From Ilex aquifolium (lineage: Eukaryota > Streptophyta > Magnoliopsida > Aquifoliales > Aquifoliaceae), in contig OX637395.1 in the NCBI GenBank assembly GCA_951799425.1, positions 11,820,451 through 11,884,450 of the forward strand: a stretch of 64,000 nt of DNA, given 5' to 3'. Of this stretch, positions 707 to 44,814 are shown piece by piece; position 1 is the first letter of the stretch; every line of letters starts with the position of its first letter. Under the pieces are notes generated by a model. That model did no database searches. It worked only from the letters and a program-made list of their open reading frames with translations, and was not told where the DNA came from. Both the position numbers and the translations under genes were made by a program.

Positions 707-1172
707 TCAACCCTTAAAAGCTAACTTTTTGCACCTCCTTTTCACACCTACTTTTTTTTTTTTCCCGTAAGCCTTCGTCTTCTTCGTCCAGACTTACAGT
801 CCAGTCCAGACATCCAGCCCCTCTTCTTTCTTTTATTTAGTTTATGTGTTAGTTTCTTTGGTGTATTCATCAACAAATCAGCCTATTTGATTCAATCATT
901 GTGCAAATCAAATTTGAAGAAACCCTAGAAGATTATGTTGAAGCTAAGGAAAAGTAATCCATTAACCAAATTTTTTGATAGTAGTATTAGCACTAATCTA
1001 AAATCAGATTTTTTATATTAGAAAATTAGTTTAGTTCTTGTAGAATTGATGGTTGTTTGGTGAATTATTTATGGACTTATGTAGGTTTTCTTTGTTTCGT
1101 CTTGGGTCACCACTCAGATTTTGGATATAAGTCTCTTCTTTTTGTGAAAAACATGATATTATTATTCCGAAT

Positions 1173-1793
1173 ATGAATGAGATATACATAGCTCGAGGAA
1201 GGTCACGGCGTTGTGAAAAAGTCACTAATCTACACAGTTATCGTGTTGCATTATTTTCTACGGTGTTAGATATGCAACTTCAAGAGCTTATTGATCGTTT
1301 TACTGAGGTGAACACCGAGCTACTTCTTTGTGTGGCATGCCTAAATCCAATGGATTCATTCTCTGCATTCAATAAGGAGAAGTTACTTCGTCTTGCTCAA
1401 TTTTATCCATCAAAATTTTCCCCAATGGAGCTCTTGATACTTGATAATCAACTTGAGACTTATATACTTGATATGCGCTCCAATGAATTTTCAGAAGTTA
1501 AAGGAATTGGTGGGCTTGCAGAGAAGTTAGTTGAGACCAAAAAGAATATAGTATATATGTTGGTATATTTGCTCATCAAACTAGTACTTATCTTATCAGT
1601 TGCCACTGCAACCGTCGAAAGAGCATTTTCAGCAATGAACATAGTAAAGAATCGATTGCGCAATCGAATGGGAGATCAATGGATGAATGATTGCTTGGTT
1701 GCATATATTGAGAAAGATGTTTCAAGTGTCATTGAAAATGAAATGATTATGAAACGGTTCCAAAATATGAAAACTTGTCGAGAACAATTATAA
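1173..1793 (+). pseudogene. hAT transposase C-terminal fragment (hATC dimerisation domain)
   Basis: A 206-codon open frame that matches the C-terminal part of plant hAT transposases of the TTF-type zinc finger / HAT dimerisation group. The signature lies at about residues 129-183, with SVATATVERAFSAMNIVK followed by LRNRMGDQWMNDCLVAYIEKD. This is the hATC dimerisation domain, in which the A-T-V-E-R-x-F-S core is diagnostic. The usual N-terminal zinc finger and the RNase-H-like catalytic part with its first acidic residues are absent, because full proteins of this group run to about 700-800 residues. The frame ends at a normal stop about 270 bp before the right terminus. It is probably not catalytically competent alone. 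Confidence 0.85.
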
Positions 1794-2065: not shown

Positions 2066-3003
2066 GGCTCAAAATCCTATTTCGGGAGGATACTTAGGAA
2101 GTTAATTCACCATTTGGTAATGCTTTTCCAAGTCTTCATCGCCTTTCTTCTCACTATGATGCTCCTATTTCTAGTCCTCTTGTTGTAGGGATGAGTCTTA
2201 TTCTTGGGATATCCATTTCTTTAGGGGCTCAAATATAGGATAGCTAGAGATTTAGCTTCTTTGCTTGTCATTCTTCATAATTTCCATCCTACAACTCCTC
2301 ATGATCATAGACTTCCAACTATGGATAGATTATGTAACTTTTCTTGCAGAACTTTTTATGCCAATCTTGTTGGATCCCTTAAGGCTCATTCTTTTCCTAA
2401 GACAAAAATTTATTTTGGAAAGCAAAGAGTCACCCATAAGTCAAGGCATTTGTTTGTTCTACTATTCTCAGTAAGGTGAATAATAATAATTTGTTGCATG
2501 TGAGAAGACCTTACAAAGCTTTGAGCCTTGATATTTGTCTAACTTGCATGAGAAATGGAGAGTCAAATGCTCATCTATTCATTCATTATTCTTTTGCTTG
2601 ACGTTTACAGAATTAAGTTGTTTAACGGAGTAGTGTTGGTGTGCTCTTCTACAGTGGAGTTGTTGCAACTTAAGTTCTGGGATTTTGGGAAAGTAAAGAA
2701 GCAAAGGTTCGTGGAATTGTATGTTGATGGCTGTTCTTTGGATCAATTGGTTCAAGAAGAACATAAGAATTTCCCATACTTGTTCTCTTGCGCTGTCCTC
2801 AGTGTGGGACTGGATTGTGTTACTTGCTTCTTTATCAACCCTATGTGCTGGGAATTTCAAAGGAGCATCTTTGACAGATGTTCAACATCCTATATTTCTT
2901 TATTTCTTAACTTTTTTGAGGATATCATGTCCTCTGTACTGTACTTCTTTCATTTCTTATCTCTCTAATTAATATCTTCTTTTATTAAAAAAAATTTAAA
3001 AAA
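2066..3003 (+). pseudogene. LINE remnant, downstream piece with zf-RVT and poly-A tail
   Basis: This continues the LINE broken at 396. Joined across the hAT, the frame reads GDGDGLKILFRED, the plant L1 G-x-G-x-x-I-x-F-W-x-D motif with W changed to R. It is followed by a run resembling FPSLHRLSS (about 2125-2150). Near 2490-2600 a frame reads RRPYKALSLDICLTC, then NGESNAHLFIHYSFA. This matches the zf-RVT zinc-binding domain (C-x2-C, then HLFxHC), with the last cysteine lost to tyrosine. A C-terminal tail (about 2740-2900) follows, and the element ends in an A-rich tract at 2987-3003, as LINEs do. Several frameshifts and stops are present. Confidence 0.75.
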
Positions 3004-3423
3004 CATTGACATACTTGTGGGCATGAGAGCACGAAACAACCATCCACTACTTAAAAGAAATGTTTTTTAAATGTTTCTAGACTTTCCACAAAATGATTTT
3101 ACCTTGGTTTAATATCTCCAATAAGATACTTCCTTCAATTTGAAAATGGAGGTGGTGTCTTTATGGTGACCAGTAGTCATATCTTTGTGAACATAGCATA
3201 GTTTGTCGAACTACTGGTTTGGTTACATCCAACACATGGGTTTGCTAAAAGGAAGAATCGGCATTTCTTTCAGTTGTTAGGGTCTTCCTGCTGTCAGTAT
3301 ATCCAATAAACCAAGTGTCAGCATGAGTATAAATTTCCACGCTCCCATTGATGTTTTCCCAATATGTCCCTCTCCTTCCACTGTATTTATTGTCCCTCCT
3401 CATGTTTTGTAGTGTGTACACTA
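3004..3423. other. No gene seen
   Basis: AT-rich sequence between the LINE tail and the TRIM-like element. Short open frames exist on the minus strand but show no recognisable domain. Confidence 0.5.
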
Positions 3424-13960: not shown

Positions 13961-14319
13961 GAAGCTGTGAAGGCATGGCTACGCAGGATTTCTCAACTGA
14001 AGATAAATAATCAGCTGTGAAGGCATGGCTACGCAAGATCAAACTGAAGATAAATAAATATCGAGCAAATCTGATCTGATCTGATCTGAGATGACAGTAG
14101 ACGGTAGATCTGAGATGAGATGAGATCTCCTTTCAAGTGTATACCTGGTTTTTTTCGATTGAGATGAAGGGAGAGCCGATTGAGATGAAGGGAGAGCCGA
14201 TTGAACTAAGAGTGAGATAGAGTGAGTGAGGGACGCGCACAATGAATCTGAGAGAGGGATGAGGCTAGCTGGGAGAGGGAGGAAGCGGCAGGTCAGAGGA
14301 ATCTGAGAGTGAGATAGAG
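13961..14319 (-). mobile_element. hAT-like element fragment, part beyond the MULE insertion
   Basis: Host sequence on the left side of the MULE. It continues the segment 21477-21787 once the MULE and the hAT MITE are removed. It has internal duplications: AGCTGTGAAGGCATGGCTAC at about 13963 and again at about 14011, GAGATGAAGGGAGAGCCGAT twice (14160-14203), and GAGTGAGATAGAGTGAGTGA at 14209. A GATCT run lies at 14071-14090. It resembles the leader region of autonomous plant hAT elements on the minus strand, with a possible splice donor near 14142. An alternative is the promoter region of the AAA ATPase gene. Confidence 0.4.
14311..14319. repeat. 9-bp target duplication of the MULE (left)
   Basis: GAGATAGAG directly abuts the left terminus; the identical copy is at 21114-21122. 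Confidence 0.9.
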
Positions 14320-14449
14320 GGGTCCGGCTCCTCTGCGTTGAAGAAGTAACCGCACACTCTGCGGTTTAATGGAACGGCGCCGTTTGCGGCTGCCTTTGCA
14401 ATTTTTTTTTTTTTAATTTCTCCTTACCCAAAACGACGTCGTTTTGGGA
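14320..14449 (+). repeat. Left terminal inverted repeat of the MULE
   Basis: Inverted counterpart of 20987-21113. It carries two palindromes: AACGGCGCCGTT at 14373-14384 and a 22-bp perfect palindrome at 14427-14448, centred on AAAACGACGTCGTTTT. A poly-T run lies between them. Presumed promoter and transposase-binding region of the transposase gene. Confidence 0.88.
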
Positions 14450-16074
14450 CTTATTGAATCCAGACTAGTTTCTCCCGCTTTTTCTTCTTCTCCCGCTTTC
14501 TTCTTCTCCAGTCTGTGTACATGAAATCTTTCTCTCGGTTCTCCCACAGGTTTTCTCTCAACCAGCACACCACCATCCCTGCTTCTCCCGCCTTCTTCTG
14601 CCTCAACAAAAAACGACGTGTGTGTGTGTGTAGGATACAAGAGCAATACAGGACATTAGATACTGTCCAGTGCTGGGATTCTAGCCTAAGACCATTAAGC
14701 TTCTGTAATTTGATTGACCGAGGGACCCCGGCTGTCTGTGTGTATGAAAATTTCGTAGATATAATTTACGCTTTTGAATATAAATTTATGTTTTTCAGCA
14801 TACAAATGTGCTTGCAAAATATGTTTTCTAAATAATAACTTTGAAGTTGAATCTTTTTACATGCTTTTATAGTGGGAACTCTGGGTTTAACCTATAATTT
14901 AATGTAAATTATGGTATATTGAGGCATAAGTTAGAAATTGTTGTATGGATAAAATTAAGTGTGGAACGAATGATAAGTTGAATGTTTTTTTTCTGGAAAC
15001 TTAGGTGGGGGTGGGGTTGGAATTTTGGGTTCTGCAAATGTGGTTTGGGGTAAGAACAATCATTCATTTTTTTAGTTGTTCTTGATGTGGCAGAGTGGTG
15101 ATATATAAAAAAAAAAAAATTCTTCAACTTTAAGTGATAACTCAAGTGACAATAAAGACGAGAATAACCTAGTTTTAGTGTGGATGGTCTGTCTTTAATC
15201 AATCAAATAATATAAAAAATTAATCGAAATACACGTAAACTAGTTCGAAAAAAAATTTGTTGGAGTTTCTGTGGGCCATTTCGATCCTCAAGCATTCATT
15301 CAGGTTCTTTAATAATCGTCTTTTTGACAATAGCAAGAATATATTTTTGTTCCTCTTGCATTAATGTGACATATACATCTCTGTTTTTTTTTTTTTTTGA
15401 GTCTTACTATGATTCTATAACAAGCATATTTCTCTTTCTCTTTCTTACAATGTTGCTTTTTTTTTATGATTGACAAAATAATCTAATGTCCATGTTCTCT
15501 TTGATGGCACCAATACGACTTTGGGTAGTTATTGTTCATTTGCATGAGTGCCAAACCTAGTTACCATTTTATTTTTTTGATTTGACTTGTGTTTCAAAAC
15601 GATGTGTTGTCTATTTCCTTGCACAAATTCGTCTCTTAGAACTTATAAAGAACATATTTTCCATGGATTTTGAATTCCATTTAAGGTAATTGCTTTTTGA
15701 CTTGAGCTCTGGTATGCTATATAACCAATTTTTGGTAGCTATTTTTCCCGACGTGACATTTTTCTATTAGTTATGGATGGTTTCACAATAGTTGGTGTAT
15801 CATCTGCATCTAGAAATGTTTACCTTGTTGATAATTATGTTCTTTTTTTAGGCAATTGCAGAAATAGCCAAGGCATCAAATCTTGAGCTATGTACATGAA
15901 GAATCTTCTGGTGAGAAGCTAAGTTCCAGAAGCTTACGGAGGCTTGAGGCTGAAAAGATAAAGAAACTTCGAGTCTACACCAGATTCTTGTACAATAGTT
16001 CATTGTTGTTTCTACATATAGTATGTGTTTCATTAACAACAAATAGTCTTATTCAATTAAATTTCTTATTGTAG
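14450..16074 (+). other. MULE leader region of the transposase gene
   Basis: Non-coding sequence between the left TIR and the transposase start. A CT-rich stretch follows the TIR (14465-14590), with a short GT microsatellite at about 14618. The last intron of the leader ends at GTAG (16071-16074), 6 bp before the ATG. A possible leader exon lies at about 15853-16018. Exact exon borders cannot be settled from sequence alone. Confidence 0.5.
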
Positions 16075-16080
16075 GATATT

Positions 16081-18537
16081 ATGATGGATAATTTGGGAGT
16101 TAATGCGAAAGAGAATATACCTCATATTGGTATGCAATTTGATGTGGAGGAAGATGCTTATGCGTTTTACAATAGTTATGGAGGGTCTGTGGGATTTAGC
16201 GTGAGAAAAGACTCTCAGAATAAAAGTTTGAAAGATGGCGTCGTCATTTACAGAAAATATGTTTGTTGTAAACAAGGTAAAAGGGGTCGTGATAAAAGAG
16301 ACAGCCAAACAAAGAAGCCTCGAGCAGAGACACGAACAAATTGCGAAGCTCATATGTGCATATCTCTTAACAGAGATATTGGTAAATTTGTTGTGACGAA
16401 GTGGGAGGACAACCACAACCATCATTTGCACCTTACTGAATGTATGCATATGATGCCATCTCAACAGAAGGTTACCGAAGCACAAGGCATTAATATTGAT
16501 ATGGCAGCGGATTGTGGATTGTCACTTAAGGCTTCCTATGAACTTTTAAGTACTCAGTCTGGAGGAAAGGAAAGTCTTGGTTTTACTCGTCAAGACCAAA
16601 AGAATTACCTCCGTGAAAGGAGGCAACGAGACTTGATGTATGGTGAGGCGGGTAGTTTGTTGAAGTATTTTCAAGCGGAAGCAGCTAAAAATCCATCATT
16701 CTATTATGGAGTGCAATTGGATGCGGAGGAGCATATTACTAATATTTTTTGGGCCGATCCAGTGATGATTGTTGACTATGGCAACTTTAGAGATGTTGTC
16801 TCATTCGACACTACTTTCAGAACGAACAAGGAGTATCGGCCCTTTGCATGTTTTACTGGGTTCAATCATTTCAGGGAGACAGTATTATTTGGAGCTGCAT
16901 TATTGTATGATGAGACGGCAGAATCATTTCAGTGGTTGTTTGAGACATTCCTACAAGCTATGTCTGGGAAATATCCAATTACCATCTTCACGGACCAAGA
17001 TCAAGCGATGGCTAAGGCTATTTCTATTGTCATGTCAGAGACATACCATGGGTTATGTACTTGGCACCTTTGTCAAAATGCTTTGAAACATTTGGGGAAC
17101 ATTTATAAGGATGGTTCACAATTTCCTGCTCGATTTAAAGAGTGTGTGTATGGATATGAGGAAGAGCATGAACTATTTGAGGCTTGGGAATCGTTGCTTA
17201 TGGAGTATAAATTAAATGATAATGTGTGGATGAAAGCCACTTGGGCATTGCGAGAGAAATGGGGGCATGTGTATATGAAGAGAACTTTCACTGCAGGAAT
17301 GCGAAGCACCCAATTGAGTGAGAGCTTGAATGCAGCCTTACGGAAGTACTTAAAGCCAGACCATGACATTGTTCAATTCTTTGTGCATTTTGAAAGAGTT
17401 GTGAATGATAAGCGGTATAAGGAGTCAGACTCAGAATACGAAGCTAGGCAAAAATTACCTAGATTGAAGTTAAAAAGAGCTCCAATGTTAGTGCAAGCAG
17501 GGCAAGTGTACACTCCAACTATGTTTGAGCTATTCCAAGAGGAGTATGATATATTTCAGTGTGCTATTGCTACACCATGTGATGTGTTGGATGGGTGGCA
17601 TCAATTTGTGGTTCGATTATATGATGAACATAGGGAGTATTTGGTCTTGGTTAAGACTAATGAGGAACTAGTCAATTGTAGTTGTCGGAAGTTTGAAATG
17701 GAGGGAATATTATGTGGCCATGCACTTAAAGTCTTGGACATGATCAATATTAAGCAAATTCCCGAGCAATACATATGTAAGAGATGGAGACGAGATGCAA
17801 GAATGAGTTGTAGGATAGCCCCCATTTTAATGTCAAATGAAGAGAATCCCAAGTTGATGATGGCGTCACGGTACAGGCAACTTTGTCCTAGAATGGTACA
17901 ACTAGCTGCTCGATGCTCTGGTCTTCAACCTGCATATGAATTGGTGTCACATGGTGTTGAGGAATTGTTCAAAGAAGTGGATAGTATGTATGCATCAATT
18001 GGTGATGGTGGCGATGATCCAATCCATGAAAATGTTGACCCAAGTGGATTAGAAAATGTTGACCCAAAACTTCTCCAAGTTAAAGGTTTAAAAAGAAAAG
18101 AAGGTGGTTACAAGGGTTGGGGTCGACTAAAATCTTGGCATGAGAAAGCAACAAAGAGAAAAAAAGGAGCTTCCCAACCATCACATATGACTATGGTATC
18201 GTATAAATATAATTGTAGATTTTTTTAATTCACTTCATATTTTTATTCACTTCCTATTTTTATAAACATAATTGTAAGTATTTTTATATTCCAGGTACAA
18301 GGTTTCACTCACCCGTGTACATCAGCATATGGTCATTCGATGTCTTCTCAAGCTTCAAATAGTGTACAAAGTGTTATGGTATGTGACCTGATTGTTAAAT
18401 TTATTGATTCACATATTTACGAAGTTTCTTTGTCTGACCCCTTCTCATTAATGTAGGGTACTCCGACTGATTCAACATATGTGCATTCTTTAAATGACGC
18501 TGAATCATTTTTCGTGAATGGGAGATACAACTTGTAA
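16081..18537 (+). CDS. MULE transposase with FAR1 DNA-binding domain and SWIM zinc finger
   Basis: Coding exons 16081-18195, 18295-18378 and 18457-18537 join in phase, with GT/AG borders, to 759 codons. Domains in order: a FAR1 DNA-binding domain of WRKY-GCM1 type (about residues 17-125; VCCKQGKRGRDKR, NCEAHM, DNHNHH); a MULE transposase catalytic domain with SFDTTF (D243), IFTDQDQAMAKAI (D305), the C-x2-H-type GLCTWHLCQ, and a candidate third acidic residue, E414, in QLSESLN; a SWIM zinc finger, CxCx9CxH (C533, C535, C545, H547); and a basic tail (KRKEGGYKGWGR, KRKKG) likely to be a nuclear localisation signal. It would cut and join the element ends in the nucleus. Read without splicing, the frame stops after 715 codons; the spliced tail is in frame to a normal stop. 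FAR1/FHY3 transcription factors descend from such proteins, but location between TIRs marks this one as a transposase. Confidence 0.92.
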
Positions 18538-18927
18538 TGATGGTTAGAGAATTAGCAGTTATAAGGATGCAGATGGAGACTTCTCATTTTGTTGAAAACT
18601 TTTTATTTTTAATGAGACTACTAGCTGTTGTAAGGATGCTTGTTGTATTTTTAATGAATGTGATCTTTTTTAAATGAATGTGGTCTTTTTAATGAATGTG
18701 ATATTTTTAAATGAATGTGGTCTTTTTAAATGAATGTGGTCTTTTTAAATGAATGTGGTCTTTTTAATGAATGTGATCTTCTTCATGAATGTGATCTTCT
18801 TCATGAATGAGATATTTTTTAATGAATGTGATCTTCCAAGTCACAACAATATACAAAACCCATAATTTCATGCAAATTAAAGGCACAAGTTCATTTACAA
18901 TACAAGTTTCATCACTACATCATTGCT
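18538..18927. repeat. Minisatellite between the convergent MULE genes
   Basis: At 18648-18837 about ten tandem units of 17-20 bp with the core AATGAATGTGRTCTTTTT (variants with ATATTT or CTTCTTC) separate the 3' ends of the two MULE genes. The rest is AT-rich 3' UTR sequence. Possible polyadenylation or termination spacer; inference only. Confidence 0.75.
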
Positions 18928-19314
18928 CTACTTCACTACAATCACAAATATCAACATCACCACTACAAAAGTGACTACAAACATATATGACTTCATTGAA
19001 CCATCTTTAGCCACAACACGTTCAATTCGTCGTACATTGTCTTCAATTCGTCGTACATTGTCTTCGATTCGTCGTACATTGTCTTCAATTCGTCGTACAT
19101 CCATCCTCTCATTTGTAATTTCCGAAGAGGGGAGAGTAATAGGTGTCATCCACTTAAAAAAGTGATGGGAATCGTCTTCACATTTGCAGTATAGCTTCCC
19201 AGGATTTTGTTCAGATTCGGACACTTTGATAATCGCTCTTCTGCTACAAACAGGGCAATTCCTATTGCGAAATATTAACTCGTTGTTGCTTGTAGCCGTG
19301 CTTGAAGATGCCAT
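18928..19314 (-). CDS. GRF-type zinc finger protein with heptad coiled coil and C-terminal membrane segment
   Basis: A 128-codon intact frame facing the transposase gene. Residues 17-57 form a GRF zinc finger: NRNCPVC (C20, C23), then NPGKLYCKC (C43, C45), then HHFFKWM. Classical members have C-x-F-F-x-W; here histidines 50/51 stand where the last cysteine usually is. Residues 73-99 are a perfect heptad repeat, VRRIEDN three times and then VRRIER, with V and I at a/d positions as in a parallel coiled coil. It is encoded by four 21-bp direct repeats at 19021-19100. Residues 110-127 are a hydrophobic helix (YMFVVTFVVVMLIF), a tail-anchor-like segment. A leader intron is likely: acceptor at 19324-19325 and donor at 20844-20849. 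The function is unknown; it occupies the mudrB-like position in the element. GRF fingers bind nucleic acid in other proteins. Confidence 0.82.
   Translation of the reverse strand: MASSSTATSNNELIFRNRNCPVCSRRAIIKVSESEQNPGKLYCKCEDDSHHFFKWMTPITLPSSEITNERMDVRRIEDNVRRIEDNVRRIEDNVRRIERVVAKDGSMKSYMFVVTFVVVMLIFVIVVK
19021..19100 (-). repeat. Four 21-bp tandem repeats coding for coiled-coil heptads
   Basis: TTCAATTCGTCGTACATTGTC on the plus strand occurs about four times with single-base changes. The unit is exactly seven codons, so changes in copy number lengthen or shorten the coiled coil without breaking the frame. Confidence 0.9.
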
Positions 19315-20986
19315 TTTTCAACACTACAAACATGAAATGACAATGGTATTAAAACTCAAGATTACAGCATAATGATATTCAGCATACATAGCAGCACACA
19401 TAGCAGCAAACATAGCAGCACACATACTGCTATGTTTGCTGGCTTATGAGACTGCCAAAACAATTCTATTTGCTTTATACACAATTGGGGATAGTAACTT
19501 TTGATGTATGTGTTAGCACATTGTACTGTAAATGTAGGTTTGAAATGGTTTCTCACTAGAACTTTAAGAGGCATGTAGCCAGATACTAGGTTAACAAAGT
19601 AGTATTGTTCTGCATGATTTTTTCCTAAATTATCAAAATACAATTTGTTAGTGCAATGAACTTTCTGAGAAAATTTGCAATGAAGCTCAATGAACATTAG
19701 AGGTGGCATCATCAGTAAATAAATATAATGAAAACAGATTTACAGAACAAGTCTTCACCTCAGGCCTCTTTGCACATACAATTCCCAGGATACACAGATT
19801 ACCTTTTGTTTGAGTAAGCACTTATCGACCAATCTGCTCACTCATATCCTATACTTTCTCTTACAAAAACTGCAAATTCTATTCTCATTTTCTTTTTGCA
19901 TGGTTCTGGATGATAGCATTAGAGAAATACCCATTGCATGCTTTTTCTGGCATGCTATTTATTTTTAACAAATGCTGTGCAATTTACTAATAATAGGTCA
20001 GATTGTATCATCTACATATTGAAAGCAACTTTAAGAAGGATAAACCAGCAAATGCAACATAATATTTAAAGCATAGTAGTTTATGACCAAAAAGGAATGT
20101 CAAAAAACAAAGAAAGACTGCTGATTTATTCAAGTGTCTGGTTCTTCTACAAATACCATTTTAAGAAAATGAAATTTTAGAATAAGATTTGCCTTATGAG
20201 GAAGAGTATAAGAATAGAATTTAAAAAATGGAAACAGACAGCCATGAAAAGAAGCTTCCCATGAATCTTAATTAAGAAGTACTAGAAAAAGTTAAACCCT
20301 TATTGTAATGTGCCTCAAGAATTTCTCAAAAAGTTGCCGAACATAATCATGTAACTAGTAGATTGAATAATTCAGATGGATCAGGAAGACAACAAAAGAA
20401 GGTGGATTAGGAACAGTCACAAGTCACAACCTAAGAACCAAAGGCATTTTCTCAAAAATCTATTACAATGAGGTTCAAAAGCAACCAACTGAACAATTCA
20501 TCCCCCCTGCTACTTTGGTAAACAACTCACAGAACATATTTAATCAAGAAGGTAAATAACATTACTGATAGAAAATAACAAGAAAAATCAGCCCCAACAA
20601 CTAATGAGTAAGGGAATCAACGTAATCCAAGTAAAGACAAAAGATTAACATATTATTTTCTAATGCAAGTTCAGACGGCAGCGATTTCAGAGGCATCCAA
20701 TGCAAGTTGGTTGATTGATTTTAGCCCTAACAAATCTCAATCACAAATTTCGGAATTCCACAATATAAGTAATTTCGAAATTTCAGATTTTCAGATTTTA
20801 GCCCTAACAAATCTCAATCTATAACAAACATCGGAATAAGTAAACAAACCTGAGCAAGGGAGCAGCGATTTCAGAGGTGGATTCGAATTCAGCGGTGGAA
20901 AAAAAACCAGATTCAGAGGAAAGGGGAAAGCGGGAGGAAGAAGGACAGAGGAAAGAGAGGGGGGTTTCAGATCTGATTTTTAAAAG
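19315..20986 (-). other. MULE leader region of the GRF gene
   Basis: Likely 5' UTR and leader intron (19324-20849, GT/AG) of the GRF gene. A first exon of about 130 bp leads to the right TIR. It includes a direct duplication of TTTTAGCCCTAACAAATCTC (about 20720 and 20795) and of GCAGCGATTTCAGAGG (about 20676 and 20862). GCA-rich repeats at 19383-19430 (ATAGCAGCA(A/C)ACATAGCAGC) lie within the intron. No other gene seen. Confidence 0.55.
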
Positions 20987-21113
20987 GACCAAAACGACGT
21001 CGTTTTGGGTAAGGGGGAATTAAAAAAAAAATTTGCAAAGGCAGCCAAAACGGCGCCGTTTCATTAAACCGCAAAGGGTGCGGTTAGTTGCTAAAGGCAG
21101 AGGAGCCGGACCC
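20987..21113 (-). repeat. Right terminal inverted repeat of the MULE
   Basis: Inverted counterpart of 14320-14449. It ends GGAGCCGGACCC, followed by the 9-bp duplication. It has the same two palindromes: CCAAAACGACGTCGTTTTGG at 20989-21008 and AAACGGCGCCGTTT at 21048-21061. It differs from the left TIR by scattered substitutions and small indels. Confidence 0.88.
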
Positions 21114-21122
21114 GAGATAGAG

Positions 21123-23198: not shown

Positions 23199-24722
23199 TT
23201 ATTTCAAGACCTGTAAAGAATTCAACAAGTCAGTTAATTCAGAAATTTTAGAATTATTTTCATTTATCTGTAACAAAGAAGATTGTTCCAGCGAGCATGC
23301 TTCAAGTGGATCATACAAAGAAGAATCATATACTCTACTTGGAACAAGAGACTCAATCATATTAATCTCATTCACATCTTCATCAACATTCCCTGGTTGT
23401 TTGCACACATTAAAAATGTTAAGCTCTAATGTCATATTCTCAAAAGTTAACTTCATCACACCATTCCTACAGTTAATTAGGGTATTAGAAGTAGTTAGGA
23501 ATGGTCTGCATAATATAACAGGAATCTGAGCATTAGTACTCAATACAGGTTGAGTATCCAAAATTATAAAATCCACAAAAAAGTAAAACTTATCAACCTG
23601 TACTAAAACATCTTCCACCATACCCCTTGGTATTTTTACTGATCTATCAGCTAATTGAAGTATAACCGAAGTGGGTTTTAACTCCCCTAACCCTAATTGT
23701 TCATATACTGAATAAAGGAGCAAGTTCACACTAGCTCCTAAATCCAACAAAGCCTGTTCAATTTTGTGGTTACCTATAACACAAGAAATGGTAGGGCAAC
23801 CAGGGTCTTTATATTTTGGTGGAGTCTTATGTTGTATGATGGGAGATACCTGCTCAGTCAAAAATGTCTTCTTTTGCACATTTAATTTCCTTTTAACAGT
23901 ACATAATTCTTTCAAAAATTTTGCATAAGAAGGTATTTGTTTAATGACATCCAACAAATGAATGTTGATTTTTACCTGCTTAAAAATCTCTAACATATCA
24001 TTATGCGTGTTTGAGTTGATAAATGTAAGTAATCTCTGTGGGAATGGTGCAGGTATAACATACTTCTCGGGCTTATTGATTTCAGATTGGTCAAGTTTAT
24101 CACCACTCTCCATAGGTTTTGAACTTTTCTCAGATTCTTGAATTGTAGTAGGAATAGTTTTATCAATTTCTTTCCCACTACGAAGTGTGGTGATAGACTT
24201 TACCTGCTCATGAATAGTATCTGAAGTGCCTGTTTCCTTGACATTAAATTGACCTTGGGGATTTGGTTGAGGTTGGGCTGGAAACTTACCATTTTCTTGA
24301 TGGCATGGATCAGTGGTCAATCTAGTGATTGCACTCCTAATATCCTCAATAGCCTGTGTAGTTTGTCTGTTGTAATTATTCTGACTTTGCATGAATTGTG
24401 ACAACACTTCCTCAATATTCTTCTTTGGGGGTGGAACATAGGGTACAAAATTAGAGGAATTTTGTTGAGGTTGTTGTGATGCATGATTCTCATTCCTCCA
24501 ACTAAAATTTGGACGATTTTTCCACCCCGGATTGTATGGATTTGAATAAGGATTATTGTAAGGTTTTGAGAAAATATTTGCAGCATTTGCTTGATCATGC
24601 AAGACTTCTTTTAGAACAGGCAGTGTTGGACACTCCTTCATGGGGTGTCTAGGAATCTCACAAAGACTACAAACCTCCTCAACAGGTACTGTGTCAATTT
24701 CGTTAACCCTTTTGAATTTCAT
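23199..24722 (-). pseudogene. Gypsy gag C-terminal part and aspartic protease
   Basis: A 507-codon open frame on the minus strand. Near its start lies a zinc knuckle, CSLCEIPRHPMKEC (C-x2-C-x4-H-x4-C). Then comes a Q/N-rich linker with NPYNPGWKNRPNFSW, typical of Athila-type gag. The second half is a retropepsin-like domain, ALLDLGASVNLLLYSVYEQL, with DLGAS in place of DTGAS, followed by LADRSVKIPRG and FIILDT. The frame ends 250 bp before the RT frame; the gap (22943-23198) still reads as pol with stops (for example AIGWTLADIK). Probably inactive because the frames around it are broken. Confidence 0.85.
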
Positions 24723-25690
24723 GGCTTCTACCCTTCTAGCTAAGGTGGCAATTCTAGCCCCTAGGTCATCTTCTTTCCTCAGCTGGTATTTACCCCCACT
24801 TGATGATGATTGTGTGGTCTTACTTTTAGGAGGTTCTTGGGATGTGGTATCCCAAGATTGTGCATTCTCAGCTAACTGGTCTAAGAAGTCAAAGGTCTTG
24901 TCTGGTTCCTAGGAGCTAGAATTGCCACCATTACACATCATTTCTACAAACTGACGCATTTGTGGGCTCAAACCCTCATAAAAGAAATTTATCACACGCT
25001 AGCTCTCATAATCATAACCGTGATGTGGACAAGATGCAAGAAGGTCTTTAAATTTATCCCAACTTTGATAAAAAATTTCAAACTCTTTTGTAGAAAAATT
25101 CATAATTTGCCTTTTGAAAGAATTTGTGCGATGTGTGGGAAAAACTTTTTCAGAAATTCTTTTTGCATCTCAGGCCATGTACCTATGGTCCTAGGTCTGA
25201 GTGAATGTAAACAACTCTTAACCTTTTCCTTTAATGATAAAGGAAAAAGCTTTAATCTGATTGTATTCACTAACACAGTCTGATCATGGTATGTGGCACA
25301 AACCTCTTCAAAGTCTCTAATGTGCAAATAAGAGTTTTCCGCCTCTATGCCATGAAATTTTGGGAGTAATGCAATCATGCCAGGTTTAAAAATAAAATTT
25401 GTGGCATTTAATGGAAATATGATGTATGAGGGTGCAGTGTGACGTGCAGGTTGTAGATAATCACGCAAAGTCCGACTATGATTAGCATTCAGATTATCAA
25501 CATCATTCTCATCATGATTACTTACCCTATCCTCATGTTCAGGAAGATTATTTTGCCTATTATTCTTAGGATCAGCAGCCATTGTATGAGAAGTATGACT
25601 TGAATTAGATGAATCAAATAACTTTTCAAATAGAGTATCTAAATCTTCTCTTATCAAACGACCACTCAAGTCACGATGCCAAGAACTCAT
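24723..25690 (-). pseudogene. Gypsy gag N-terminal part
   Basis: Starts MSSWHRDLSG at 25690 and contains the gag core: TLRDYLQPARHTAPSYIIFP, FKPGMIALLPKFHGIEAENS, HIRDFEEVCATY and NTIRLKLFPLSLKEK, then WPEMQKEFLKKFFP. It is frameshifted at about 25135 and continues in another frame (FEIFYQSWDKFKDLLASCPH, FFYEGLSPQMRQFVEMMC) with two in-frame stops to 24723. It would form the capsid of the particle in an intact element. It lies just upstream of the zinc-knuckle/protease frame, the normal gag-pol order. Confidence 0.85.
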
Positions 25691-25785
25691 AAAACAAATA
25701 AATAAACTAAATAAAAAAAAAACATAAATCTAAATTAAATAACAAAAAGAAAATAAATTGCAATAAAATAAAAATTGGATCGAAG

Positions 25786-38594: not shown

Positions 38595-39940
38595 ACAAAT
38601 TCCCTACTTAGACCTGACAGCTTCAATACCTAAGAAGTACCTGAGTTTGCCAAGGTCTTTAGTATAGAATCAGTCCTGGAGGAAGACTTTCAACTTTACA
38701 ATACCCTCAGAGTCATCACCAGTAATTGCAATATCATCGACATAAACAACTAGTATAATGTATCTAGAATTAGTATGCCTGTGAAAAATAGAATGGTCTG
38801 TCTAACATCTAAGAAGACTAAACTCTAAAACTGCCTCTGAAAACTTAGCAAACCATACCTTCGGTGACTTCTTTAAATCATACAAAGATTTTTTAGCCTA
38901 CAAACACGCTTATGATACTCTCTCTGAGCAGCAAACTCAGGTGGCTACTCCATGTAGACTTCCTCAGCTAAGTCGCCATGCAGAAAAACATTTTTCACAT
39001 CTAACTGAAACAAAGGCCAATGAAGATTAGTAGCGAAAGAAATCATTACACAAACATAATAAATTTTGGCAACAGGAGAAAAGGTTTTCTCATAATCAAT
39101 GCTATAAGTTTGAGTAAATCCCTTAACAACAAGTCTGGCTTTGAGGTGTTCAATAGAACCATCAGGATTAAATTTGACTGTATACACCCACCAACAATAA
39201 ACAAGCCTTTTACCAGGGGGTAAGAGAACAAGATCCCAAATCCCATTATGGTGTAAGACATCCATTTTGCACTTCCATAGCTTTCCTCCAACCCGAATCA
39301 AATATTTCACCCTGTAATGTCTTAGGAATAGAGACAGTAGACAACTGAGAGATAAAACAAGAAAAGGCAGGAAACAATGTATCATAAGAAACAAAATTAG
39401 TAATAGAATGTTGAGTGACACAGGACCGAGTACATTTAGGGAGAGTAATGGGTAAAAAGGCATCAATAACTGGAAGACTAGGATCAAAAGATGTTGAGGA
39501 AGATGGTAGGGGAACCTCAATCAATGATTGTGGATGACGAGAATATACACAGAACGGGTAGGGAAATGACAGAAAGTAAGGGAAGAGGGGGTGGAGGGGA
39601 CTGCACAAAGTCAAGGTCCAAAGGAGGATTAGGAGCTAGGAAATAGGGGTCCGATTCAGTGAAAGTGACATCAGCACTAGTGAAGTATCTGCGGATGATG
39701 GGACTATAGCATTGGTATCCCTTCTGTGTGCACGAATAACCAAAAAAACACATTTTGTAGCATGAGGGGCGACTTTGTCAAATCCTGGACCCAAGTTGTG
39801 AACATAACAAACATAACCAAATACCTTAAAAGGTAAGGAAAATAAAGGAGAATTGGGAAAAAGAACAGAATATGGACTTTGCCCTTATAAGACAGAAGAA
39901 GACATACGATTAATGAGATGACAAGCAGTAAAAACAACAC
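38595..39940 (-). pseudogene. Copia reverse transcriptase (minus strand)
   Basis: Minus-strand frames contain [20 protein letters not shown], then [20 protein letters not shown] and [20 protein letters not shown], then [20 protein letters not shown] and DLAEEVYME. The YVDDI-type catalytic region reads on the minus strand as VVYVDDIAITGDDSEG (about 38710-38755). A proline/serine-rich linker between integrase and RT covers about 39300-39700. Several frameshifts exist (about 39290, 39520 and 39750). Confidence 0.87.
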
Positions 39941-41386: not shown

Positions 41387-41539
41387 CCTGTGTCCAAGGA
41401 AACTTGGAAAAGAGGGCATTAGTTTACATCTTGAGTTTTAGGCGGTGGAGACTTCCTTTGCTAGATGACTCTTCCCTTACACGATGCATTTTTGCTTTTG
41501 GGCAGTTTTGGCAAGATCTCCAACCCAAGTGGGCGTGCA

Positions 41540-41765
41540 GGAAATGCGGAGCAGCCCCTTGGGCGTGCAGCAGAGGTGGAGCAGAAGCGGAGCAGCCCCT
41601 TGGTCGTGCAGCTAAGGCGGAGCAGCCCCTTGGGCATGCAGCGGAGGCGGAGCAGCCCCTTGGGCGTGCAGCGGCGGCGGAGCAGCCCCTTGGGCGTGCA
41701 GCGGCGGCGGAGCAGCCCCTTGGGCGTGCAGCGGCGGCGGAGCAGCCCCTTGGGCGTGCAGCCTG
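41540..41765. repeat. 27-bp GC-rich tandem repeat
   Basis: About seven units of GCGGAGCAGCCCCTTGGGCG plus TGCAGCG; the last four are almost identical. The unit is nine codons; the plus frame would give AEQPLGRAA repeats and the minus frame CTPKGLLRR repeats. Neither is expected to be a real protein. Confidence 0.9.
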
Positions 41766-41812
41766 CTGAGACGCTGAGGGTGCTGATCTGGGCGAGCAGC
41801 ACTATTCTGGGA

Positions 41813-42268
41813 GAGCAGAAAATTTTTTTTTTTTTTTTTTCGAAAAAACTTCGGGAGGCCAAAACAGCTGTTTCTGAGACTTTTTTGGACTTTTTACAGC
41901 ATCAATCACAGCCAAAGACTGTGAGTATTGTAGGGCTCGTCGAGAGCTTCGATTTGATATATTATGGGCCCTATTTGGAGTTACGGAGCAGAAGTTACGG
42001 TCAAAACTTCGAGCAGAGAGTTGGGCGAGCGTGTTTGGGCGTCCAGGCAGCTTTTGGGCGAGCACACTGTGTCTTGGGCGAGCAGATACGGTCCTGGGCG
42101 AGCAGGAAATTTTTTTTTTTTTTTTTTTTCAAAAAAACTTCGGGAGGCCAAAACAGCTGTTTCTGAGTCTTTTTTGGACTTTTTACAGCATCAGTCACAG
42201 CCAAAGGCTGTGAGTCTTGTAGAGCTCGTCGAGAGCTTCGATTTGATATATTATAAGCCCCATTTTGA
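41813..42268. repeat. Direct duplication of about 165 bp in the gypsy element
   Basis: Blocks 41813-41976 and 42105-42268 share the T-run, AAAACTTCGGGAGGCCAAAA, ACTTTTTTGGACTTTTTACA and CGTCGAGAGCTTCGATTTGA with a few changes. They are spaced 292 bp apart and separated by GGGCGAGC-rich sequence. Confidence 0.88.
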
Positions 42269-42520
42269 GCACCTTGGGCGAGCCGGAGCTGTCTTGGGCG
42301 AGCCTAGGCTGTCTTGGGCGAGCCTAGGTTGTCTTGGGAGAGCTTGGGACTGCCTTGGGTGCCTTGGGTGAGCATGGGGCTGCCTTGGGCGCCTGAGAGG
42401 TACTGGGCACTTGTGCTGGGCGCCTGGGAGGAGACCTGAGCGCCTAAGGAGGAGACCTGGGCGCCTGAGAGTGTCTGGGCGCCAGGCTTGGGCGCTTGGT
42501 GTGATGGCCTGGGCGCCTGG
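42269..42520. repeat. GGGCGAGCC / GGGCGCC motif repeats
   Basis: TTGGGCGAGCCTAGGCTGTC-type units (42277-42345) grade into GGGCGCCTGGGAGGAGACCT-type units (42415-42520). The GGGCGCC motif also occurs in the 30-bp repeats at 44040-44335. Confidence 0.75.
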
Positions 42521-42944
42521 TGAGCTCCACTGAAATAGGTGGCATGGTGGGCGCCCATGCTTGTACGGATGTAGGCCCCTTGCGAGCGAGTTCTATTTGA
42601 GGTAGGAGGCATTTTGGCGAGGAGGCTTGCGTAGAGGGGAGTGCAAAGGTTGATCTGGGCGACCAGGGCGGCAGACTAGGGCGGTCAGGCAGCTAGGTAG
42701 GCTGATCTAATGTAGTCCCTCGGGTTGCAGACGACCTAAGTTGCAAGGTCCTGCCTAGAGATGACAAAAATAACGTTATTCCAAACATTAAAATATTTAA
42801 CATGATTACCTGGAGAGAGAGGCAGGCTGCTTGCGCGAGAGCAAATGCAGAGTTTAAGGACTGCTCGTAAGAGAGCTACACCTTTTGAGACCGAGCTTTT
42901 GGCGACCCATGAGAGAGTCCTTAAGCTTGAGGTATAGGCTGCAT

Positions 42945-43525
42945 GTTTGAGAACAGTGCAGAGGCAGGTGGGCTGCCTGCTTGAGAGCAGTGCAGAGGTA
43001 GGCTGTCTGTTTAAGAACAGTGCAGAGGTAGGTGGACTGCCTTCTTGAGAGCAGTGCAGAGGTAGGCTGCCTGTTTAAGAACAGTGCAGAGGTAGGTGGA
43101 CTGCCTGCTTGAGAGTAGTGCAGAGGTAGGTTGCCTGCTTGAGAGCAGTGCAGAGGTAGGCTGCCTGTTTAAGAACAGTGCAGAGGTAGGTGGAATACCT
43201 GCTTGAGAGTAGTGCAGAGGTAGACTGCCTGCTTGAGAGCAGTGCAAAGGTAGGTTGCCTGCTTGAGAGCAGTGCAAAGGTAGGCTGCCTGTTTAAGAAC
43301 AGTGCAGACGCCAAACTTTTTTGGCGACCCGCGAGAGAGCCGCTAAGCTGGAGATAGGCTGCCTGTTTGAGAACAGTGCAAAGGTAGACTGCCTGTTTAA
43401 GAACAGTGCAGATGTAGACTGCCTGCTTAAGAGCAGTGCAGAGGCCAAGCTTTTGGCGACCCGCGAAAGAGCCGCTAAGCTGGATATAGGCTGCCTGCTT
43501 AAGAGCAGTGCAGTGCAGAGATAGG
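42945..43525. repeat. 30-bp tandem repeat array
   Basis: About eighteen units of AACAGTGCAGAGGTAGGCTG plus CCTG(T/C)TTAAG, alternating between GTTTAAGAACAGTG and CTTGAGAGCAGTG types, so a higher-order repeat is visible. Interspersed are two copies of TTTTGGCGACCCGCGA(G/A)AGA and GCTAAGCTGGA(G/T)ATAGGCTG (about 43318 and 43451). Confidence 0.9.
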
Positions 43526-43586
43526 TCAAGCTGTTGGTGATTGCGAGATGATTCACCTTGTCTAGACCTGTTGATTTCCTCAGCAG

Positions 43587-43985
43587 TTATATATTTTCGA
43601 GCTTTGCCAATAGTTCTGGCATGCTCTTTGGTGGTCGCTTTATTACCGAAAAGCGGAAACTCGATGAGCAGAGACCTCCCAGGAAGGCGGTCATGATGAC
43701 TTTGTCATTGGGCTCCTCGATTTTGAGCTGAGAGTCACTATGAGAAAGAAGGTGTTGAGTTTCCATCTCTATTGCCAACCTTAGGCTAGAGATGAGGGCT
43801 TCATATTCTGCCTCATTGTTGGAGGCGATGAAGTGAAGCTTCACTACATACTTGATGTGAGTGTCGTCGGTGCTGATCAAGATAAGGCCCGCTCCTCCTC
43901 CTTCGTTGGTTGAGGAGCCGTCGACGTAGAGTTTCCAGAGTGATGGAGAAGGCTGCTCAGAGGTTTCTGGAAGGGGTAAGTCCAT
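43587..43985 (-). pseudogene. Fused RNase H and gag scraps in one frame
   Basis: A 132-codon open frame. Residues 17-87 look like the additional RNase H (aRNH) of Tat-lineage elements: WKLYVDGSSTNEGGGAGLIL (D22), IASNNEAEYEALISSLRLA and SHSDSQL (D84). From about residue 88 it turns, without a stop, into a gag-like piece, EEPNDKVIMTAFLGGLCS and KRPPKSMPELLAKLENI. In normal elements gag precedes RNase H, so the order is reversed and the fusion must be a rearrangement. Function is unlikely but the frame is open. Confidence 0.7.
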
Positions 43986-44039
43986 AGGGCGAGTCGCCTG
44001 GGTACCAGGTTGGGATCCAGAAGGGGTCTGGACGCCAGA

Positions 44040-44335
44040 GGGACTTGCCTGGGCGCCATCAAGGGTGGCTGAAGGGGCCTGGGCGCCATCAGGGGTGGCT
44101 GAAGAGGCCTGGGCGCCATCAGGGGTGGCTGAAGAGGTCTGGGCGCCTGAGGACCTTGTTTGGGCGCCAGCAAGGGTGGCTGAAGAGGCCTGGGCGCCAT
44201 CAGGGGTGGCTGAAGAGGCCTGGGCGCCTGAGGGCCTTGCCTGGGCGCCATCAAGGGTGACTGAAGAGGCCTGGGCGCCTAAGGGCCTTGCTTGGGCGCC
44301 ATCAGGGGTGGCTGAAGAGGCCTGGGCGCCTGGGG
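44040..44335. repeat. 30-bp tandem repeat array (GGCGCCATCA type)
   Basis: About ten units of GGCCTGGGCGCCATCAGGGG plus TGGCTGAAGA, with variants carrying CTGAGGGCCTTG in place of the GGGGTGGCTG part. The unit is again a multiple of three; the minus frame reads (M)APRPLQPPL repeats. Confidence 0.9.
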
Positions 44336-44814
44336 ATCCTTGATGGGCGTCAGGCTATCCTCACCGAGCTCCTGTACGTCCTTGTCGAGAGTTGAGGTGT
44401 CCTCGCGGGGCGAGGTGGAAAGCTTGTTGTTCTCCTCTTGTGCTGGAGTCAGCTCAGCAATGAAATCCGCCAGTGCTTGTGCTTTGATGGCGTTTAAGGC
44501 GTCACCTAGTTGGTTTTACACCTATTTTATCTTTTTGTTCCACTGGTTGGGAGCTCTTTTTGAATTGTCATGGAAATGGCTCTGTGCTCAATGCTTTGGT
44601 TTTCACACTCATCCTCTTGGAGATAAGGGTCTCCACCATGGAGAGCAGGAGCTAGAGGAGGAGGTTGAGGTCCCTCATGGGGAGGTCCTTCATGCTGGGC
44701 GCCCAAGGGGGCTCCTAAGGGGGCGGCTAGATGAGGAGCACCCATGTGGGGAGCTCCTTGACACCCCAGGCGTGGAACTCCTCTCACTTGAGGTCCAGGT
44801 TATGCTCCTCATTG

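Follow-up and report, generated by a model that had tools for sequence, protein, structure and literature searches.

The 64,000-nucleotide stretch of Ilex aquifolium DNA analysed here (contig OX637395.1, positions 11,820,451 to 11,884,450; hereafter the window) holds, at positions 14320-21113, a Mutator-like element (MULE) with two convergent genes, one for a transposase and one for a small GRF-like zinc-ribbon protein with a hydrophobic C-terminal tail; we find this second gene to be a recurring mobile component of MULEs, present in at least one FAR1-type and two MuDR-type sublineages of this one genome. The element is flanked by a 9-bp target site duplication (TSD), GAGATAGAG, read at its left (14311-14319) and right (21114-21122) ends, which make up two of the three occurrences of that sequence on the plus strand of the window. 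Its terminal inverted repeats (TIRs), at 14320-14447 (+) and 20989-21113 (−), are 88% identical across 128 bp; long TIRs are characteristic of the MULE superfamily. Each TIR contains two palindromic stretches (14373-14447 and 20989-21062), around AACGGCGCCGTT and CCAAAACGACGTCGTTTTGG, which are candidate binding or promoter sites. The transposase gene (16081-18537, + strand) is modelled with three exons (16081-18195, 18295-18378 and 18457-18537) that would encode a stop-free protein of 759 amino acids (AA), its two introns being placed from GT/AG borders and the reading frame; without splicing, there is a single frame of 715 codons (16081-18228). The FAR1, MULE (PF10551) and SWIM domains of this protein score 83.0, 90.6 and 29.6 bits in Pfam, all above the cut-offs (27.6 bits for PF10551), and the combination of an N-terminal FAR1 and a C-terminal SWIM domain is that of Jittery-like, FAR1-type MULEs. 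The second gene (18928-19314, − strand; 128 AA, one coding exon) converges on it from 0.39 kb beyond the transposase stop, and both genes lie within the TIRs. An earlier note on this DNA had described a MULE with a 9-bp duplication, matching TIRs and two convergent genes, laid out as in maize MuDR with a GRF/membrane protein in the mudrB position; that description is borne out, and the arrangement recurs elsewhere in the genome.

The second protein combines a GRF-type zinc ribbon (codons 20-56, 19147-19257), a run of RRIEDNV heptad units (codons 72-98, 19021-19101) and a C-terminal hydrophobic segment (residues 109-127, 18934-18990), all encoded on the minus strand. The zinc ribbon of the window copy scores 22.3 bits against Pfam GRF (PF06839), below the cut-off of 25.9, as do its close relatives L003 (20.1 bits) and L023 (22.7 bits), whereas two more diverged copies (33.4 and 33.6 bits) and five distant relatives (28.8-42.7 bits) exceed it (loci L031, L033, L034, L036, L037, L049 and L050). 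In other proteins, zinc fingers of the GRF type bind nucleic acid in single-stranded form. The hydrophobic segment, with a mean Kyte-Doolittle value of 2.94, ends a single residue before the C-terminus, and by the same hydropathy measure 15 of the 16 GRF proteins examined have it 0-6 residues away from the terminus, and the remaining one (L003) 12 residues away. A single segment so close to the end is the pattern of tail-anchored proteins, whose N-terminal part faces the cytosol or nucleoplasm, and by hydropathy in these 16 proteins membrane insertion is predicted. The earlier note was thus right about the length of 128 AA and the hydrophobic tail, and its zinc finger is GRF-like though under the cut-off in this copy; its ‘perfect heptad’ coiled coil, on the contrary, had to be rejected as a conserved trait, the heptads being the product of a 21-bp tandem DNA repeat whose unit number differs between copies. 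Some GRF copies have a non-repeated, heptad-like stretch in its place. A Pfam scan of the second gene returned no match to the plant mobile domain (PMD) at E ≤ 1, scans of viral contigs with the transposase and GRF proteins found no relatives, and a search of PDB sequences gave, in effect, matches to coiled coils only. Searches of protein databases returned four relatives at E ≤ 1e-3 in one case, at least eight at E ≤ 10 (at least five of them at E ≤ 1e-3) in another and ten at E ≤ 1e-3 in a third; all the named ones were from Ilex paraguariensis.

We searched the genome from which the window was taken (800,232,872 bases in 103 contigs) with both genes. The GRF protein gave at least 144 matches (150 scored of 193 candidates), from which 16 second pieces were dropped and 128 used; the transposase exon gave 65 matches from the best 63 of 1309 candidates scored, which merged to 63 places. 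At 43 of these 63 transposase places a GRF match lies on the opposite strand past the 3' end, mostly 0.6-0.9 kb away, and because so many scored copies have the same convergent partner, the pairing seen in the window cannot be put down to chance. Approached from the other gene, all 30 of the best-scoring GRF copies converge with a FAR1-type transposase (29 within the 1.5 kb fetched, and L026 at 2.3 kb), and each of the three diverged loci fetched (GRF 53-61% identical) has a convergent FAR1-type transposase, broken, beside an open GRF frame. Broken FAR1-type transposases adjoin open GRF frames at L049, L050 and L051. Of six further GRF-bearing copies, five are bounded by 9-10-bp TSDs at different sites (GGCAACCAT, GACTGATAC, GGGTTTGCCT, CTCTTAGGCC and CTCATCTGC) and in the sixth the left end is damaged, so that with the window copy TSDs were found at six of seven elements. 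The second gene has therefore been transposed within the TIRs to independent sites, as a unit with its element.

The same partnership extends to MULEs with a very different transposase. Among the approximately 30 distant GRF matches (28-38% identical), 14 loci were fetched, and at nine of these the GRF frame faces a convergent transposase of MuDR type (L035, where it is a fragment only, and L036, L037, L038, L070, L071, L072, L073 and L074). At L033, a 47-residue FAR1-type fragment (E 1.8e-6) lies in the right direction past an apparent nested LTR element, and we did not count it as a pair. A genome scan with the L064 transposase gave 85 matches (62 scored of 1983 candidates); of 32 merged places checked against the GRF matches, five have a GRF partner, in every case convergent and across a gap of 1.27-1.45 kb (a set that overlaps the nine loci above), and 27 have none, which is weak evidence given how distant the GRF query is. 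Two MuDR-type sublineages each include one element, read over its whole length, with TIRs and a perfect 9-bp TSD: L064 (PF03108 43.2 bits, MULE 46.2 bits; TIRs 92% complementary; TSD TAATATTTT) and L076 (TIRs 99% complementary over 115 nt; TSD TAAAAATAA; GRF frame open, transposase interrupted by a single in-frame stop). A further element, L065, has TIRs and no visible TSD. Next to the GRF locus at L069, a frame at 2708-3190 in this nuclear DNA resembles, by eye, a piece of a mitochondrial NADH dehydrogenase subunit. Between MuDR-type sublineages I and II, the GRF proteins are 38.5% and the transposases 37.9% identical; the window GRF protein is 32% and 26% identical to the two MuDR-type ones, and the window transposase has undetectable (best E 3.4) or bare (20%, E 6e-6) similarity to theirs. 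The ranking thus agrees for both proteins, I and II being closest and both far from the FAR1 type. That the gene is found in FAR1-type as well as MuDR-type lineages makes it a recurring component, whether inherited with the transposase or acquired repeatedly; its unique capture by one element is rejected, given GRF copies genome-wide and GRF pairs in the MuDR-type sublineages.

The histories of the second gene and of the transposase coincide only in part. When 12 type-B copies are compared with the window, synonymous divergence (dS) is 0.02-0.08 in the transposase vs. 0.22-0.31 in the GRF gene, a mismatch suggesting that elements have traded halves. Upstream of the GRF start codon, 12 of the 13 loci compared have DNA unrelated to that of the window, and the simplest reading is that the GRF half was swapped between elements. 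Tandem repeats of approximately 18-19 bp between the two genes (18641-18835), from about which DNA identity among subfamilies falls toward the GRF gene, may mark the site of exchange.

The best overall explanation, and one that we consider probable, is that the second gene is a recurring mobile MULE component that encodes a membrane-bound helper acting in trans. The tail-anchor pattern, the zinc ribbon and the presence or absence of the gene among copies together make a trans-acting, membrane-bound, nucleic-acid-binding helper the role best supported. The gene would be read from the right-hand TIR, and its product would be a tail-anchored protein of the endoplasmic reticulum (ER) or nuclear envelope, with the zinc ribbon facing the cytosol or nucleoplasm and binding nucleic acid, and with the heptads allowing self-association; it could then also serve copies that lack the gene. 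As to its action, we would prefer that it interferes, at membranes, with the silencing of the element by RNA-directed means, and would rank next a MURB-like aid, through membrane tethering, to transposase location or to reinsertion.

Several results weigh against this explanation. At 20 of the 63 scored transposase places no GRF match lies within 8 kb, and the tail side of ten of these 20 was read without a GRF frame being found in any. Three of these ten GRF-less elements (L039-L041; C9:23.32M, C2:56.27M and C12:27.87M) share one TIR type and are mutually 99.5-99.6% identical over 2.8 kb, with one transposase stop-free and two carrying one stop each; this subfamily has amplified recently, and since it multiplied, the GRF protein is not needed in cis. 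In three other copies (L045, L047 and L048) the 5' side typical of a GRF-bearing subfamily is retained and the coding part is absent, which points to loss of the gene. Four of the 14 distant loci (L031, L032, L034 and L075) have no transposase in the stretches read. Nor does dN/dS at shallow depth support strong selection on the GRF frame, as judged from copies with open frames (broken copies were left out of these samples): the pooled NG86 ratio of nonsynonymous to synonymous divergence (dN/dS) is 0.78 over 22 open frames (0.71 and 0.84 for the domain parts and 0.89 for the tail segment), an IQ-TREE codon model over 21 frames gave an omega of 0.84 that is not significantly below 1 (the omega-1 comparison model additionally fixed kappa at 2), and the net values between subfamilies (20 frames) reach 1.00 for A-C and 1.03 for B-C. 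The earlier note had counted dN/dS below 1 for both genes as supportive, and for the GRF gene in this one genome the ratio is not separable from 1 by likelihood. It had further reasoned that absence of the GRF gene from other copies would speak against a two-component system, and this absence is partly what we see, in the unpaired third of places and the multiplied GRF-less subfamily; the two-gene layout recurs, and the pair is not obligate in cis. Its other concern, that small GRF/membrane genes might occur mostly away from MULEs, turned out the opposite way within this genome (30/30 best, 3/3 diverged and 9/14 distant loci paired).

For constraint on the GRF gene, shallow dN/dS being near 1, we look instead to frame retention and deep conservation. 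Among GRF matches of at least 110 residues and 50-89% identity, 46 of 65 are stop-free (by decade of identity, 5/10, 9/14, 24/32 and 8/9), vs. 4-42% open at such identities when neutral substitution of the window gene was simulated (substitutions only, without indels). The net A-B divergence between subfamilies in the same 20 frames gave 0.58 (bootstrap 0.33-0.97), and the 3' part of the transposase has a dN/dS of 0.51 over 26 transposases. We read this pattern as constraint on active lineages combined with neutral decay of single copies and fast change of the protein.

What such a helper might do divides the more favoured readings. VANC of the VANDAL elements offers a comparison for anti-silencing in trans, and a protein that counters siRNA-based repression at ER membranes is a conceivable role here, one we put forward tentatively: it fits, indirectly, the coexistence of GRF-less and GRF-bearing copies, the faster change of the GRF gene than of the transposase (as in an arms race) and the retention of the membrane tail, although the present evidence does not separate it from other helper roles. 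A MURB-like helper, which would support reinsertion or bring the transposase, or the DNA of the element, to the nuclear envelope, seems to us possible but somewhat doubtful; the gene has the position and direction of mudrB, which is required for reinsertion (PMC8224964, PMC9168764), but insertions at new sites are also seen for copies without the GRF gene, a difficulty that help in trans could remove.

Two further explanations would deny the gene any helper role. It may be a passenger, a host gene captured in the manner of Pack-MULEs and without a part in transposition; GRF-less copies do multiply, shallow GRF dN/dS is near 1 and the unrelated DNA 5' of the start codon implies that this half is easily substituted in an element. 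Against this stand an architecture and convergent position common to three MULE sublineages and frames that are open more often than neutrality allows, and no parental host gene was recognised among the loci read (no systematic search was made), so that we hold a mere passenger to be improbable. Alternatively, the pairs could be accidental, with solitary GRF-membrane host genes happening to lie near MULEs. The four distant loci without a transposase could be cited in favour, but the constant convergent orientation with short gaps at the 43 paired places, and the location of both genes inside TIRs with TSDs, leave this with almost no probability, and for the window family the pairing counts and the TIR- and TSD-bounded elements refute it. 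The four loci themselves carry GRF-membrane frames or matches and are possibly host genes or remnants.

The window has no second copy of either gene, and Rfam and tRNA scans of the window gave no matches. Frames at 1131-1793 (+), 23199-25729 (−) and 38945-39520 (−) resemble, by eye, hAT, Gypsy-type and Copia-type pieces, respectively, and repetitive frames with RRSSPLGVQ-like units occur on both strands at 41465-44354.

Among plant proteins, the closest likeness by description is to the small GRF zinc-finger proteins termed ‘At4g04775-like’, which are short, have a GRF domain and a hydrophobic C-terminal end, and are annotated as host genes. Maize MuDR resembles the window element in having two convergent genes, each beside a TIR, a 9-bp TSD and a second gene that is not a transposase; it differs in that the window element has a FAR1-type transposase and, as its second product, a GRF-like zinc-ribbon protein that ends in a predicted membrane segment. 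Reverse second genes are already on record in MULEs, namely mudrB (PMC8224964; PMC9168764) and, in PMC6446971, MutB and antisense PMD open reading frames (ORFs). The Jittery clade (group 36 in that source) shares with the window family a FAR1 N-terminus, a SWIM domain in the C-terminal part and long TIRs, but is listed there with one ORF, whereas the window family usually has a second, convergent gene (PMC6446971). The antisense-PMD MULEs (groups 42-50) are alike in having an extra antisense ORF in plant MULEs, but the window second gene has no PMD match and GRF is absent from the table of that source (PMC6446971). A comparable layout is that of the ORFR of Abermu in barley and other plants, a reverse ORF between the transposase and the 3' TIR that is present in some copies only and has Ka and Ks above those of the transposase, as does the GRF half here; the main text of its source, which judges ORFR perhaps unimportant for transposition, assigns it no domain and contains neither ‘GRF’ nor ‘transmembrane’, and the comparison is one of descriptions (PMC9168764). 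We found no GRF-membrane protein in a MULE in the open-licence literature searched, though a paper could have been missed.

A wider proposal would be that an ancient, MULE-encoded family of GRF/coiled-coil/membrane-tail helpers accompanies FAR1-type and MuDR-type transposases across eudicots, that many ‘host’ GRF genes are in fact transposon genes and that MULEs depend on the helper in trans; we regard this as possible but on balance unlikely. If the helper explanation is true, the reverse second gene found in plant MULEs, so far little understood, would acquire a definite molecular identity; transposition (or evasion of silencing) would be tied to a membrane, and some members of an uncharacterised plant protein family would have to be counted as transposon genes instead of host genes.

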